A stretch of 64,000 nucleotides of DNA from Beijerinckiaceae bacterium (GTDB taxonomy: Bacteria; Bacteroidota; Bacteroidia; Chitinophagales; Chitinophagaceae), in contig CAJCIQ010000046.1 in assembly GCA_903970475.1 (NCBI GenBank), forward strand, positions 1-64,000, in the 5' to 3' direction. This document shows, in pieces, positions 57,793 to 63,483 of the stretch. A program made the position numbers and the translations under genes. The notes beneath the pieces are model-generated. The model saw nothing but the letters and a program-made list of their open reading frames with translations, was not told where the DNA came from and did no database searches. Position 1 is the stretch's first letter; every line of letters starts with the position of its first letter.

Positions 57793-57969
57793 ACAAATAA
57801 ATCAGAACCATTAATAACTAAACCTTATCCTAAGAAAAACCTTATATAAGTAAAACGCCTGATCATGACATTTGTCACCATCAAAACCAAAAAATCAATG
57901 TTGCTTTATATGCAATGTTAAAAACACAATTCCTTAATGCCTTTATGTACACCTTAACAGACCAGGGTA

Positions 57970-57977
57970 TACCTTTG
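57970..57977 (+). promoter_or_regulatory. Candidate -7 promoter box of a small RNA
   Basis: TACCTTTG fits TAnnTTTG, with a weak TTTATG element about 25 bases upstream. The start of transcription would be near 57984. Confidence 0.45.
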
Positions 57978-57983
57978 CATCAT

Positions 57984-58066
57984 AATAATAAGCAAGCAGT
58001 CAATTTTCTCATAAGCAGTTAGTTTTGGTGAAACGGCCCCTATTTCCATAGGGGTCTTATTTTTTA
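57984..58066 (+). ncRNA. Candidate small RNA of about 80 nt
   Basis: From a consensus-like promoter at 57970-57977 the DNA runs to a strong terminator at 58035-58066, with no start codon followed by a meaningful frame in between. This spacing is that of a free-standing small RNA. There is no family match I can name, so this rests on promoter and terminator alone. Confidence 0.35.
58035..58066 (+). terminator. Strong Rho-independent terminator
   Basis: Nine-bp stem GGCCCCTAT/ATAGGGGTC (one G-T pair) with loop TTCC, followed by TTATTTTTTA. No protein gene ends close by. Confidence 0.85.
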
Positions 58067-58114: not shown

Positions 58115-58139
58115 CAAACAATAGTGTGTTTAAGGGGTT

Positions 58140-58192
58140 TATGCGTTTTATATATAGAAGCGCATTTCATAACCCACGAAAACTAAGCATCT
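58140..58192 (+). promoter_or_regulatory. Conserved leader of microprotein copy 1
   Basis: The stretch TATG-CGTTTTAYWTATAGAA, followed by AT-TCATAACCC, recurs before copy 2 (62381-62433) with nearly the same spacing to the ATG. It is conserved although the flanking DNA is unrelated, so it should be a promoter, a leader RNA or both. Confidence 0.65.
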
Positions 58193-58303
58193 ATGCAAAA
58201 CAGTATTATCCTCGAAGTCTCTGCTGGTATACTCACTTTTCTCAGCATTGTTTCCTTCCTCGCTTACCAAATCATACAATTCAACAAAACACACAAGGGC
58301 TAA
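58193..58303 (+). CDS. 36-residue single-pass membrane microprotein, copy 1
   Basis: A short gene of 36 codons. Residues 4-28 form one hydrophobic segment (EVSAGILTF, SIVSFLAYQII), and the C-terminus is basic and polar (FNKTHKG). A second gene 4.2 kb downstream encodes a protein identical at 24 of 36 residues; in 14 of those 24 the codons differ, which is the mark of selection on the protein. Leader and terminator arrangement are shared as well. I do not recognise the family. Size and shape fit a membrane regulator or a type I toxin-like peptide; neither is shown. A direct repeat of CTATGCAA lies at the start codon and again 22 bases after the stop. Confidence 0.75.
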   Translation: MQNSIILEVSAGILTFLSIVSFLAYQIIQFNKTHKG

Positions 58304-58341
58304 ATATATAGGAACGTTGGCTAACCTATGCAAGCACGAAT

Positions 58342-58368
58342 GGCTGTCTCATTTGAGGCAGCCTTTTT
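58342..58368 (+). terminator. Terminator of microprotein copy 1
   Basis: Nine-bp stem GGCTGTCTC/GAGGCAGCC (one G-T pair), loop ATTT, then TTTTTC; 38 bases after the stop. Confidence 0.9.
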
Positions 58369-58522
58369 CGGAGGATTAATTAGGCACTCACGCTTCAAAA
58401 CGGTGGCCATGAACTTCAGTATACAACCCATTTTGGAAAGCGATCAGGTGAATCTTTATTCTTTACCCACTAATGACCGGGATTCGATCAATTTTTGCCG
58501 TCGTTGAAGATAGCGTTTACCC

Positions 58523-59248
58523 TCATTCCGTTTTGAGACGCTTAACCGGATTTGCGATCGCCGCTTTGATCGCTGCGCCCAAATCTTTTCGGATGCCGAT
58601 CTCTTTTGCCCGCTGCTGCGCGGAATAGGCAGCCAGGCCGAAGATGCCCAGACAGGCAATCAAAATGGCCAGGATAGAAAACAAAAGAAAAATCTCGCCC
58701 CGGCGCTGGTCTTCTTTGCACTGCTTATTAAATTCCTCATCCAGGAAGGAATAATTGAAGGGCTGGGAGGCCGCCATTGATTTACATTGTGTCTTGATTT
58801 CATTCAATAAGCCTGTTATATCGGTACTACTGATGCGTACAGCCATTCCACCATTATCGGGATTGAGGTACAAGACCATAATGGTCACCTGCTCCCGGAG
58901 GGAGTTGCAATTAAAATCCTTAACTATCCCCACTATATGGAAGGCGGTCAATCCATTGGTGGAAAGATTGTCGATCCTGTATAGTTTTTACCCAAGGGAC
59001 TTGGGCTGTCAAAAAGTTTCGCAGCCGCTTCACCCCCCCAGGTTTGCATGAGGGTAAAATTCTTCCCATCAAACTGAGGCACCGTCACGCACCCTTGAGC
59101 ATTCCGGGAGCCCGCAATAAGCATGAAAGGAGAACTCGTTATATCTTGGACCCCTGGCATTTGTAAGAGCTGATTTTTGTATACCCCGGCATTGTCTCCC
59201 AAAGCATCTAAGGCTGCTAAGGGCTGCTTTCAGGTGGTTGATGAGCAT
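58523..59248 (-). pseudogene. Heavily deleted FtsX/MacB-type ABC transporter permease
   Basis: Pieces of an approximately 800-residue permease remain in order. An ATG at 59248 opens MLINHLKAALSSL, the usual N-terminus. The next piece (59217-58948, in another frame) is periplasmic domain (LLQMPGVQDITSSPFMLIAG). A frameshift in the A-run near 58985 leads to RIDNLSTNGLTAFHIVGIVKDF. Then come one membrane segment (ILAILIACLGIFGLAAYSAQQRAKEIGIRKDLGA) joined directly to the terminal AIANPVKRLKTE, so the last two membrane segments are also deleted. At least three deletions and one frameshift are needed, so the gene is dead. Confidence 0.85.
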
Positions 59249-59435
59249 ATGTGCAAGAATTAACCCTTCACTTCAATAAAAGCGCCGTTTAATCAACATA
59301 TTTACAATCAATTAATTATATATTTTTTCAAGAAGAAAACGAACGCTTCCGATACAGCATCCGCCCATTTTCAAAAAAAACCTTTCAGGTTGTGTACGGA
59401 TTTACCTCCGCCGTTTGTCTTATTATAAATCGCTT

Positions 59436-59879
59436 ATGACCTCACACAATGTTTTCACTGACCCCTGGCGCTTGCTGACTTTGACCCTTCTTTGTCTGGT
59501 GCTGGCCCTGACATCGAAGGCCCAAAATGCGGAAACCATCATCAAAACCTACCTTGGTGGGTATGAGAAAAAAGACTGGAACATGACTTCCAGCCAACTG
59601 GCCGATGGTTTTACCTTCACCAGCCCCAACCAAGACGACCATATTCCCATAGTGGTATATAAAGAAAGATGTTGGCCTCAGTCCCAACACTTTAAAAAGC
59701 TCGAATTTTCCCAGATCATTGCTTCCGGAGACTATGCTTTTGCCATTTATACTATCACGACCACAGAAGGTAAGGTCATCCGCAACACGGATTATTATAC
59801 CTTTAGCAATGGCAAAATATTATCCATAGAGTGCTTTTTCGGAGGTACGGGAGCTGGATTTCCAACGAACGCCCAATAG
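59436..59879 (+). CDS. Exported SnoaL/NTF2-like protein
   Basis: The ATG at 59436 (MTSHNVFTDPWRLL) gives a signal peptide ending near residue 29 (TSKAQ); an upstream start at 59415 is possible. The mature part is a small alpha+beta NTF2-like domain of about 115 residues (AETIIKTYLGGYEKKDWNMTSSQLADGFTFTSP, ending in CFFGG). Catalytic function is unknown. It lies 19 bases before the YciI/DGPF gene and is the probable first gene of the ECF42 operon. Confidence 0.82.
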   Translation: MTSHNVFTDPWRLLTLTLLCLVLALTSKAQNAETIIKTYLGGYEKKDWNMTSSQLADGFTFTSPNQDDHIPIVVYKERCWPQSQHFKKLEFSQIIASGDYAFAIYTITTTEGKVIRNTDYYTFSNGKILSIECFFGGTGAGFPTNAQ

Positions 59880-59898
59880 CCCATAAAAAATAAGCCCC

Positions 59899-60288
59899 AT
59901 GCAAAAATTCATGTTCATTATCCGAGAGGACCTGACCAAACTAAAGCAGGCCGGCGAAGCCCAGCGATTTGAGGACATTCTCATTATGGATGAATGGGTA
60001 AAATCATTGGTTAAAAAAGGTAATTATGTAAGGGGAGGAGACGCCCTGGAGGTAAATGGAAGTTATGTAAACAAAGATCAGGTGCTTTCAGATGGCCCAT
60101 TCATTGAATCCAAGGAAGGAATCAGCGGTTTTATCTTCGTGGAAGCCCTTGATCTGGCGGACGCCGTTTCTATTGCCCAAACCTGCACGCATGTACAGAA
60201 CGGGGATATGATCATTGAAGTACGCCCGGTTTTGAACCTCGAGGATGTAAACGATTTAGGCAATGAACAAAGAACGCAAGGCCATTAA
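59899..60288 (+). CDS. YciI/DGPF-domain protein
   Basis: A 129-residue YCII-related protein with the diagnostic DGPFIESKEGISGF motif at about residues 64-77. The beginning MQKFMFIIRED and the closing EVRPVL are typical too. Such DGPF proteins are encoded beside ECF42 sigma factors throughout bacteria, and here too the sigma gene starts within the 3' end of this gene (26-base overlap), so translation is coupled. The molecular role of DGPF proteins is unknown. Confidence 0.93.
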   Translation: MQKFMFIIREDLTKLKQAGEAQRFEDILIMDEWVKSLVKKGNYVRGGDALEVNGSYVNKDQVLSDGPFIESKEGISGFIFVEALDLADAVSIAQTCTHVQNGDMIIEVRPVLNLEDVNDLGNEQRTQGH

Positions 60289-61561
60289 CGAATTGTATAA
60301 AACCCATTTTGGGAAAATGGTTACCGCCATGCTTCAGTTTTCCCGGGATATTGACCTGGAAATGGCTGAGGACCTGGTACAGGATACTTTTTATGCGGCC
60401 CTTTCCACCTGGAAACTTAATGGTATACCTCAAAACCCTGCCGGATGGGCCTATAGCGTCTGCCGCAACAACGCCATCAATGCACTGAAGAAAAAGAAAA
60501 CGTACAGCAATCCGTTTGAAGAAGAAATGGCGATTTCCAAAGCCCTGGAACAGATCTCAGGAGCCCTGGAGGAAATCCCTGGAGCCTTTGATAAAATCCA
60601 TGGTCTTTTGGATCAGGACGATCCATTTTTTGACGATCAGAAGATGCGGTTGCTGTTTGCCTGCGCCCACCCTCATCTGACCTCAAAAATGCAGGTGGTC
60701 ATTACCCTTAAGTATGTGGCCAACCTGAGAGCTGAATCCATAGCCAGGGCCTTGGGCATGACCGTAGATGGCATTGACAAGGTACTCTCCAGGGCGAAGC
60801 AACGGATTAAAATGGAGAATGTTTTTCTAAGTCCCCCAAGCCCCCAACAATTGAAAACGAGGTTACCGGTTGTTCACAAGATCATTTACCTCATATTCAA
60901 CGAAGGGTACAGGGCCGGCAGCGGCAAAGACCTGACCCGTGAGGACTTGTGTGAAGAGAGCCTGATCATGACCAAATGCCTGCTGGACAATCATATCTCC
61001 AACGAGGATACCGTTGCCTTATATGCATTGCTCTTATTTAATGCGGCCAGGATGGAGGCCCGGGTCACGGAAGCCGGAGAATTATCAGACCTGGAAGAAC
61101 AGGACAGGAATACATGGAATAAGGACTTGATTGCCCTGGGCAATTATTACTTGCACCAGTCCCAAACCGATCAAGTCTCCAACTATCATTATGAGGCGGC
61201 CATAGCCTACCTGCACTGCATTGCCGGCAGCTTTGCCCAAACAGACTGGCATACGATCACCCAGATATATGTTCAGCTTTTGCAAAATAACCCCAATCCT
61301 TTTGTCGAACTGAACTATGCCATAGCCCTGTATTATGACAAGCAGACAGCGCAGGCTTTTGAGGTACTCCATAATTTGCAGGGCACCTTCCTGGAGCAAT
61401 ATTACCTGCTTCATGCCACGTTGGGTAAATTATACCTGCTTCAGGGAGATAACCTCAAGGGTGAACAGCACCTGACCAGGGCCGTAACCCTCACGCATTT
61501 CCAGGCAGAAAAAGATTTTGTAAACAAGATACTATCACGAGCAGGACACATCAGAAATTAA
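60263..61561 (+). CDS. ECF42-type RNA polymerase sigma factor with TPR-like extension
   Basis: A 432-residue sigma factor. Region 2 is at about 10-80 (LEMAEDLVQDTFYAALSTWKL, PAGWAYSVCRNNAINALKKKK), region 4 at about 135-185 (LTSKMQVVITLKYVANLRAES). A long helical C-terminal extension follows (DUF6596/TPR-like, VHKIIYLIFNEGYRAGSGKDL, NPFVELNYAIALYYDKQTAQAF). The ECF42 group carries this extension and sits with DGPF genes; it has no anti-sigma gene, and none is present here. Between regions 2 and 4 three 7-residue repeats (ALEQISG, ALEEIPG, AFDKIHG) lengthen the linker. Confidence 0.94.
   Translation: MNKERKAINELYKTHFGKMVTAMLQFSRDIDLEMAEDLVQDTFYAALSTWKLNGIPQNPAGWAYSVCRNNAINALKKKKTYSNPFEEEMAISKALEQISGALEEIPGAFDKIHGLLDQDDPFFDDQKMRLLFACAHPHLTSKMQVVITLKYVANLRAESIARALGMTVDGIDKVLSRAKQRIKMENVFLSPPSPQQLKTRLPVVHKIIYLIFNEGYRAGSGKDLTREDLCEESLIMTKCLLDNHISNEDTVALYALLLFNAARMEARVTEAGELSDLEEQDRNTWNKDLIALGNYYLHQSQTDQVSNYHYEAAIAYLHCIAGSFAQTDWHTITQIYVQLLQNNPNPFVELNYAIALYYDKQTAQAFEVLHNLQGTFLEQYYLLHATLGKLYLLQGDNLKGEQHLTRAVTLTHFQAEKDFVNKILSRAGHIRN
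60542..60604. repeat. 21-bp in-frame tandem repeat, three units
   Basis: Three 21-bp units (60542-60562, 60563-60583, 60584-60604), diverged, encoding ALEQISG, ALEEIPG and AFDKIHG in the linker of the ECF42 sigma factor. Confidence 0.85.
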
Positions 61562-61586
61562 CCAAGCCATGAATTTCAACAAACAA

Positions 61587-61614
61587 GAGCCCGACTTCGG
61601 TCGGGTTCTTTTAT
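61587..61614 (+). terminator. Rho-independent terminator of the ECF42 operon
   Basis: Nine-bp stem GAGCCCGAC/GTCGGGTTC (one G-T pair) with the stable TTCG loop, followed by TTTTATT, 26 bases after the sigma stop. Confidence 0.93.
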
Positions 61615-61800
61615 TAAGCACCTTTACATGAGCCGGCACCAAAGTCGTATTAGACAAGACCACCCTTTTCAGCCAGGCGCCGCCTTTGCTTTGCCGAAGA
61701 GGTGGCTACCACCTTTGTGGACGCCTTGACCGACAGCATCAAAAGCGGAAAACTGGGAATTGGAAAATGATTAACTTAAGGGACATCAAATCCCCATATT
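61615..61800. other. Gap with a possible gene fragment
   Basis: About 185 bases. One frame ends AEEVATTFVDALTDSIKSG-KLGIGK before a TGA at about 61768 and looks protein-like, but upstream it is out of frame and has no start. It may be the last piece of a decayed gene that I cannot name. Confidence 0.35.
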
Positions 61801-62346
61801 ATGCGCAAGTTAATCTACGCCATCAACACCAGTATTGATGGATGTTGTGATCATACCAAGATGATCCCCAGTGAGGATGTATTCGATTTTTTTATACAGC
61901 TCATACGAGGGGCTGATCTGCTCGTTTATGGGCGTATCACCTATGAATTGATGATTCCCTACTGGCCGGACATCGCTAAAAACAACTCCGGAGATTCAAA
62001 TGATAACGCGTTCGCCCATGCATTTGATTCCAAGAAAAAGGTTGTTTTTTCCCGGACATTAGAAAGCGTGGAAGATAAAAATTCGAGGCTCGTTCGTACA
62101 GACCTTCGTACAGAGATATTGAAATTAAAACAAGAAGAGGGGGCCGACCTATTACTCGGAGGCGTAGACCTTCCTTCCCAATTGATAGACCTGATAGATG
62201 AATATTATTTCGTGGTCGCACCTATCATTGTAGGGGAAGGGAGAAGGCTGTTTGAAGGAAGTCATCCGAGGAAGCGACTTGAATTAAAACTCATTGATTA
62301 TCAAGCATATAAGTCTGGAACTGTGGTACAGCATTATAAAATTTAA
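61801..62346 (+). CDS. Dihydrofolate-reductase/RibD-C-like protein
   Basis: A 181-residue protein of the DHFR-like RibD C-terminal domain family. Motifs: MRKLIYAINTSIDGCCDH at the N-terminus, LLVYGRITYELM, KKKVVFSRTL, GADLLLGGVDLPSQLIDLIDEYYFVVAPIIVGEGRRLF. The length is normal for the stand-alone Bacteroidota members. They probably reduce a pteridine or pyrimidine-like compound with NADPH, but their substrate is unknown. Transcribed alone; microprotein copy 2 follows 87 bases later. Confidence 0.92.
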   Translation: MRKLIYAINTSIDGCCDHTKMIPSEDVFDFFIQLIRGADLLVYGRITYELMIPYWPDIAKNNSGDSNDNAFAHAFDSKKKVVFSRTLESVEDKNSRLVRTDLRTEILKLKQEEGADLLLGGVDLPSQLIDLIDEYYFVVAPIIVGEGRRLFEGSHPRKRLELKLIDYQAYKSGTVVQHYKI

Positions 62347-62380
62347 AAATTCTTAAGCGAAGCATGGTGTCTTTTTACCG

Positions 62381-62433
62381 CTATGGCGTTTTACTTATAG
62401 AACCCTATCTCATAACCCCCAAATCGACACCTT
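62381..62433 (+). promoter_or_regulatory. Conserved leader of microprotein copy 2
   Basis: TATGGCGTTTTACTTATAGAA followed by CCCTATCTCATAACCC aligns with 58140-58176 before copy 1. The similarity ends about 15 bases before the ATG. Confidence 0.65.
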
Positions 62434-62544
62434 ATGCAAAGCAATCTAATAATTGAAGTATCTGTAGGCGTAATCACTTTCATCAGTGTAAGTTCGTTTG
62501 TTGCCTATCAGATTATTCATTTTAACAAGACACACAAGGGCTAA
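62434..62544 (+). CDS. 36-residue single-pass membrane microprotein, copy 2
   Basis: The paralogue of the gene at 58193-58303. Residues 4-28 are hydrophobic (IIEVSVGVITFISVSS, FVAYQII) and the C-terminal FNKTHKG is identical to copy 1. Most replacements are Ile/Val/Leu exchanges in the membrane segment. The repeat CTATGCAAACACG (62568-62580) stands 23 bases after the stop, as in copy 1. The gene is flanked by a DHFR-like gene and a phzF remnant, so the two copies have no shared neighbour genes. I do not recognise the family. Confidence 0.75.
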   Translation: MQSNLIIEVSVGVITFISVSSFVAYQIIHFNKTHKG

Positions 62545-62582
62545 AATATATACGGACAACTGCTACCCTATGCAAACACGCT

Positions 62583-62622
62583 GAGGCTGTCTCTTTTCCA
62601 GGAGACAGCCTCTTTCTTCTTC
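62583..62622 (+). terminator. Terminator of microprotein copy 2
   Basis: A perfect 11-bp stem GAGGCTGTCTC/GAGACAGCCTC with an eight-base loop, then TTTCTTCTTC. It shares the GGCTGTCTC arm with the terminator of copy 1. Confidence 0.92.
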
Positions 62623-62624
62623 TA

Positions 62625-63134
62625 TCACGGCGCTATTAACCGGTACTGCCCTGAAGTTACCATTACAACGTCTCCGGTAACGTATACATCCTCGAAGGGA
62701 GCGCTGCTCACCTGTGCGTACAACTTGCTTTCCCTGCCCAGGTTTGTGCCCTGATGTATCAGGATCACCTCATTTGCAGCACAGAGCCCATACTTTACCA
62801 GGTAGGCAGCCGCCGGGCCAGCCAGGCTGCCGGTAGCAATGTCTTCCACGAGGCCTGTATTATCCCAGGTACGGATAGAGCGGGAGGCGATGTCCAGAAT
62901 GCCTACAAATTTTGCCCCGATTGCTTTTAATCACTCACTCAGTCCGGTTACCCGTATACCTGCCTTCCAAAAACCACTTTCCACTGGAATCAAAAGATAG
63001 GGCAACCCCGAAGACACTACCTGCAATGGAAAGTTTTACGCTTGATCTTGTTCACTAAGATTCAAGGCCTGAAGGAACTCCCTGCTTTGGTCCTCCCTAA
63101 GGATACTGCCAAATGTTGCCGCACCCTGGTTCAT
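62625..63134 (-). pseudogene. phzF-like gene remnant with two in-frame stops
   Basis: A single minus-strand frame of 170 codons reads as the C-terminal two thirds of a PhzF-family isomerase: MNQGAATFGSILRED, FPLQVVSSGLPYLLIPVESG, LKAIGAKFVGILDIASRS, EDIATGSLAGPAAAYLVKYG. It is broken by a TAA at 63038-63036 and a TGA at 62933-62931. The N-terminal part with the catalytic Glu is missing. Downstream of 62849 the frame is intact to the natural stop at 62625. No function is expected. Confidence 0.88.
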
Positions 63135-63189
63135 CGTGGCTTCATATCCATAGGCTGTTCGGCATTTGAGCGGGTTCAGAAAAGCGCTG

Positions 63190-63483
63190 GATATAAACCT
63201 TATCCTTACTACCTAATGGGTGGCAACGTCTTTTCCCAAAGGCACTGCCTTTACCGGACCCGAAGGAGGGCTGGTCCTCTGGGTAGAGCTCCCGGCGCAT
63301 ATTGATGCCGCAGCCTTACAGGCCATAGCATTTGAAAATGGCATCGCTGTTGCGCCGGGAGTACTTTTTTCCAATACCCAGGAATACAAAAATTATATAC
63401 GCGTCAGTTACGGTAATGCCTGGAGTAAAAAGGTGGAGAATGAAATGAAAAGGTTGGGGAAGTTGGTGATGGAGTTGGGGTAA
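63190..63483 (+). pseudogene. C-terminal remnant of a MocR-type aminotransferase-like regulator
   Basis: From a GTG at 63220 the frame reads ATSFPKGTAFTGPEGGLVLW, VELPAHIDAAALQAIAF and GIAVAPGVLFSN-x-YKNYIRVSYG, the end of the class I aminotransferase-like domain of GntR/MocR regulators. In the same frame a TAA stands three codons before. The GntR DNA-binding part and most of the large domain are missing. It faces away from the phzF remnant, so both genes lost their 5' parts to what could be one deletion. Confidence 0.85.

Follow-up and report, generated by a model that had tools for sequence, protein, structure and literature searches.

Identity of the Two Microprotein Genes

Two short open reading frames, lying 4 kb apart on the plus strand of the 64,000-nucleotide stretch of DNA analysed here (the window), raise the question of whether such small frames are genes maintained by selection and, if so, what their products could do. 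Copy 1 (MQNSIILEVSAGILTFLSIVSFLAYQIIQFNKTHKG, 58193..58303) was delimited by codon analysis, family alignment, and an AlphaFold model, and copy 2 (MQSNLIIEVSVGVITFISVSSFVAYQIIHFNKTHKG, 62434..62544) by codon analysis. Both encode peptides of 36 aa with one hydrophobic helix, predicted to cross the membrane once, a size and character also found in type I toxins (<60 aa). In the AlphaFold model of copy 1, the helix spans residues 2–35 with a mean pLDDT of 91.7. The coordinates, lengths, and sequences given for both frames in the initial annotation are exact, and a recount returned its figures of 24 identical residues out of 36 and of synonymous differences in 14 of the 24 matching codons.

The two copies differ at 8, 4, and 20 first, second, and third codon positions, respectively. 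By the Nei–Gojobori count, 19 of ~23 synonymous sites and 13 of ~85 replacement sites differ, corresponding to a saturated pS of 0.83 against a pN of 0.15. Among all ATG-initiated frames of 25–60 aa on both strands of the window (n = 321), this pair reached an E-value of 2e-22, compared with 2e-4 for the runner-up pair, and a lead of 18 orders of magnitude over the other short frames shows that the resemblance is not due to chance.

The Shared Unit and Its Surroundings

Similarity extends beyond the coding frames, from near 58128/62370 to the terminators near 58370/62616, so that leader, ORF, 3′UTR, and terminator make up a common unit of ~230–250 bp. A conserved leader element (GCGTTTTAYWTATAGAANNNNATYTCATAACCC) at 58143..58175 (+) is identical in 27 of 33 positions to its counterpart at 62386..62418 (+) and may act as a promoter and/or a 5′UTR control element. 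The 3′UTRs, at 58304..58338 (+, with AACCTATGCAAGCACG) and 62546..62580 (+, with ACCCTATGCAAACACG), share 27 of 35 positions, and folding together with a terminator scan placed intrinsic terminators at 58342..58370 (+; 9-bp stem followed by TTTTT) and 62583..62618 (+; 13-bp stem). Comparison of the two copies gave 54 for the upstream 100 nt (shuffle maximum 40) and 66 for the downstream 100 nt (shuffle maximum 34). Thus, the leader and terminator earlier proposed to be shared are indeed common as sequence, and both terminators are strong; however, what the two leaders have in common is sequence rather than a hairpin, since the structure predicted for copy 1 is well folded (z −3.6) but is not preserved in copy 2 (z −1.5).

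With up to three mismatches, the leader element occurs only at the two window sites in its own genome and is absent from the genome of a sister species (G001), and searches for the DNA of the whole unit elsewhere gave chance matches only. The UTR blocks of the window pair are 77–82% identical, whereas only ~4 of 23 synonymous sites (about 17%) are unchanged, a difference with a Fisher p of ~1e-5 or less that is optimistic, since the blocks were picked after alignment. As the UTR blocks are more conserved than the synonymous sites, both the protein and the UTR elements appear to be under selection. An Rfam search of the region returned chance matches only, none near the gathering score.

The genes that flank the two copies are unrelated, as had been stated before: a TonB receptor and an FtsX remnant accompany copy 1, and a RibD_C-type reductase and a PhzF remnant accompany copy 2. 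The relatives of the TonB receptor and the reductase in G001 are at the level of paralogues only (29% and 57–58% identity). Upstream of copy 1, a possible sRNA gene was noticed at 57969–58064, with a TAnnTTTGC-like box and, ~60 nt on, a strong terminator (GGCCCCTATTTCCATAGGGGTC TTATTTTTT). The FtsX remnant (58523–59202, minus strand) derives from an FtsX/MacB-type ABC transporter permease gene and is split into frames. The PhzF-like gene (62625–63483, minus strand) is also broken, and a short plus-strand frame beside it (63220–63483), unmatched in Pfam, resembles by eye an aminotransferase tail; the window appears degraded in this region. The interval between the microprotein copies holds, at 59899–61561, genes for a YCII-domain protein and, after it, an ECF-type sigma factor extended by DUF6596; the two are a known pairing, and no promoter motif common to these genes and the microproteins was recognised by eye.

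A Family of Paralogues and Syntenic Orthologues

At least two further paralogues are present in the same genome outside the window, which makes four paralogues with the window pair. One of them (C190) lies downstream of an APC amino-acid permease gene and another (C59) is divergent from truB. In G001, the one other genome of the genus examined, orthologues occupy the same two places, next to truB and the APC permease, and the permease-linked member is found in both species on the same strand as the permease gene, 61–89 bp downstream of it. The truB-linked orthologues are the most conserved pair, sharing 31 of 34 residues, of which 14 are encoded by synonymous codons (pS 0.59, pN 0.05), while the permease-linked orthologues are looser (pS 0.61, pN 0.33); in an independent orthologous pair, the differences by codon position are 5/0/13. 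The two window proteins are clearly preserved by selection. The initial annotation had proposed a real, selected microprotein family, and this proposal is upheld by the four paralogues, the two syntenic orthologues, which provide homologues outside the strain, and a dN that is far below dS, with a ratio well below 1, in both the window pair and the truB-linked pair.

The 3′UTR of the truB-linked members (L004:1384-1464 (−) and L005:1366-1476 (−)) is 80% identical between the two species (44 of 55 columns), with conserved blocks ATCCATATC, AAACCTnTGCAA, and TCCCATATCTTATG, and is more alike than the synonymous sites of the ORF. It likely represents an RNA control element, to judge from this conservation, and its sequence is unlike that of the corresponding elements in the window pair.

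In the family alignment, F30 and N31 are invariant, position 32 is K or R, position 8 is E or D, and residues 23–28 read V/L-A/V-Y/F-Q/N-I/V-I/V. Conservation is concentrated at residues 8–9, 13, and 23–32, the mid-helix stretch 18–21 being variable. The family keeps an acid at residue 8, a transmembrane helix, and, at what is presumed to be the cytoplasmic end, VAYQIIxFN(K/R). The C-terminal FNKTHKG, previously described as invariant, is so between the window copies, whereas only FN(K/R) is invariant across the family. A single conserved face of the helix was sought, and the conservation moment was not significant (p 0.4–0.6).

Profile searches revealed no convincing member outside the genus in 396 genomes of the family (103 genera) and none in 395 genomes of the class (197 genera), although the short query and the first-look filter limit the sensitivity of these searches, distant members may be missed, and the genus is represented by two species only. 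Weak matches in other genera (G288, G062, G015, and others) proved, where inspected, to be fragments of other proteins or to lack a matching ORF. Profile scans of genome and viral contig collections gave 22 and 102 pattern matches, none of them confirmed; phage, viral, and plasmid collections contained no family member, and a search for hidden orthologues around truB and the permease in ~30 relatives found none beyond the genus. The earlier view that the peptides are not assignable to a known family agrees with the lack of matches in Pfam, NCBIfam, and PDB (best hits at chance level, with E-values of 0.02 or worse and scores well short of the cut-offs), in PHROGs (E-values of 0.09 or worse), and in PADLOC. 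The family thus appears to be small, previously unnamed, and found only in the source bacterium and its sister species among the genomes searched. The GMSC catalogue holds 52.5 million genus-specific small-protein families (PMC11364881), which are likewise lineage-restricted and conserved, without functional annotation; the present family is set apart by its documented set of several paralogues, syntenic orthologues, and conserved UTRs.

Possible Functions of the Microproteins

The most likely reading, to which we give about an even chance (roughly 0.5), is that the products are stand-alone membrane microproteins that bind and tune a larger membrane protein. Each copy would be a self-contained mini-gene with a leader element, a 36-codon ORF, a 3′UTR, and a rho-independent terminator, whose product would insert as one continuous hydrophobic helix across the inner membrane. 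Its acidic N-terminal end would probably be outside and its basic C-terminus inside, as the positive-inside rule suggests for a peptide with an acid at position 8 and a basic tail. The conserved VAYQIIxFN(K/R) on the cytoplasmic side could dock on a larger partner in the membrane, for example a transporter or sensor, and thereby tune the activity or stability of this partner, and paralogues that have diverged in mid-helix and tail would act with different partners or under different conditions.

Purifying selection, the syntenic family of four plus two members, the proximity to a permease, and the predicted single helix count in favour of such a membrane partner. So does the distribution of conservation along the peptide, since a sequence-specific motif at the membrane edge fits a defined contact better than it fits indiscriminate damage to the membrane. 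Small single-pass proteins such as KdpF, AcrZ, MgtS, and CydX act as accessory or regulatory membrane proteins of transporters and enzymes, and the family resembles them in size (30–50 aa), in the single transmembrane helix, in the short or absent tails, and perhaps in being often missed by annotation. Nevertheless, the present family shows no Pfam, NCBIfam, or PDB similarity to them and no operon partner common to its four loci, and it has its own terminators and several paralogues in one genome. Against this reading, a common neighbour was sought at the four genomic places and none was found; the permease linkage concerns one of the four paralogues, in both species, whereas nothing adjacent is common to the remaining three. 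The conservation analysis, which brought out no single conserved helix face, and the strong UTR conservation also count against it, the latter because it shows that control or function at the RNA level matters as well.

The main rival, which we regard as unlikely, is a hydrophobic membrane peptide of the type I toxin kind, toxic if overproduced and repressed by an antisense or trans-acting RNA, with the conserved leader and 3′UTR holding the mRNA inert until processing. The small size, single helix, and basic C-terminus would suit a toxin, as would the presence of several paralogues in one genome, the short stand-alone transcripts with strong terminators, and a UTR conservation exceeding that of synonymous sites; Fst/Ldr, TisB, Hok, TimP, and MsoT1 are also small hydrophobic membrane peptides with short mRNAs and several copies. 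However, no antisense antitoxin gene was detected: consensus scans, which are weak proof of absence, found no terminator on the minus strand up to 300 bp from each copy and no conserved Bacteroidota-type promoter in antisense orientation, no long-range 5′–3′ pairing is common to the folds of both units, and the complementarity of the nearest putative sRNA, at 57969–58064, to the microprotein mRNAs does not exceed that of shuffles. Moreover, the truB-linked core is nearly fixed, a tighter constraint than toxicity by itself would seem to demand, and the membrane-edge motif is specific and highly conserved here, in contrast to those toxins.

An equally improbable alternative is a dual-function sRNA, acting as a regulatory RNA through its conserved leader and 3′UTR and also encoding the microprotein, for which SgrS/SgrT is a precedent. 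It would be favoured by UTR conservation only, that is, by the contrast with synonymous sites in the window pair and by the 3′UTR shared between species at the truB locus; yet conservation of a 3′UTR could also reflect processing or stability, and the UTR p-values are optimistic for the reason given above. In view of the Rfam result, this reading would need a new RNA, and the different UTR elements of the window and truB-linked pairs speak against an RNA function common to the whole family. That the copies have no function and arose when a non-coding stretch with a chance open frame was recently duplicated is very improbable even though short ORFs are common in any genome and the family is narrow, given that synonymous sites are saturated with few replacements and that the codon pattern is repeated in an independent orthologous pair.

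Significance for the Family

Before a cyanobacterial case, type I systems were reported only from Proteobacteria, Firmicutes, and Tenericutes (PMC12390103). It is unlikely that Bacteroidota have here a system resembling type I toxins or combining RNA and peptide functions, in which the conserved leader and 3′UTR control the membrane microprotein, and a true type I system would extend this class to a phylum outside that list. The general picture does not change, because microproteins confined to a single genus are already known in great abundance, and the family is real but of an ordinary kind, that of microproteins specific to one lineage and of hypothetical function. It is, by codon-level selection and synteny, a clear coding microprotein family absent from curated family libraries, and experiments in this Bacteroidota genus can start from its defined motif and its paired UTR elements.
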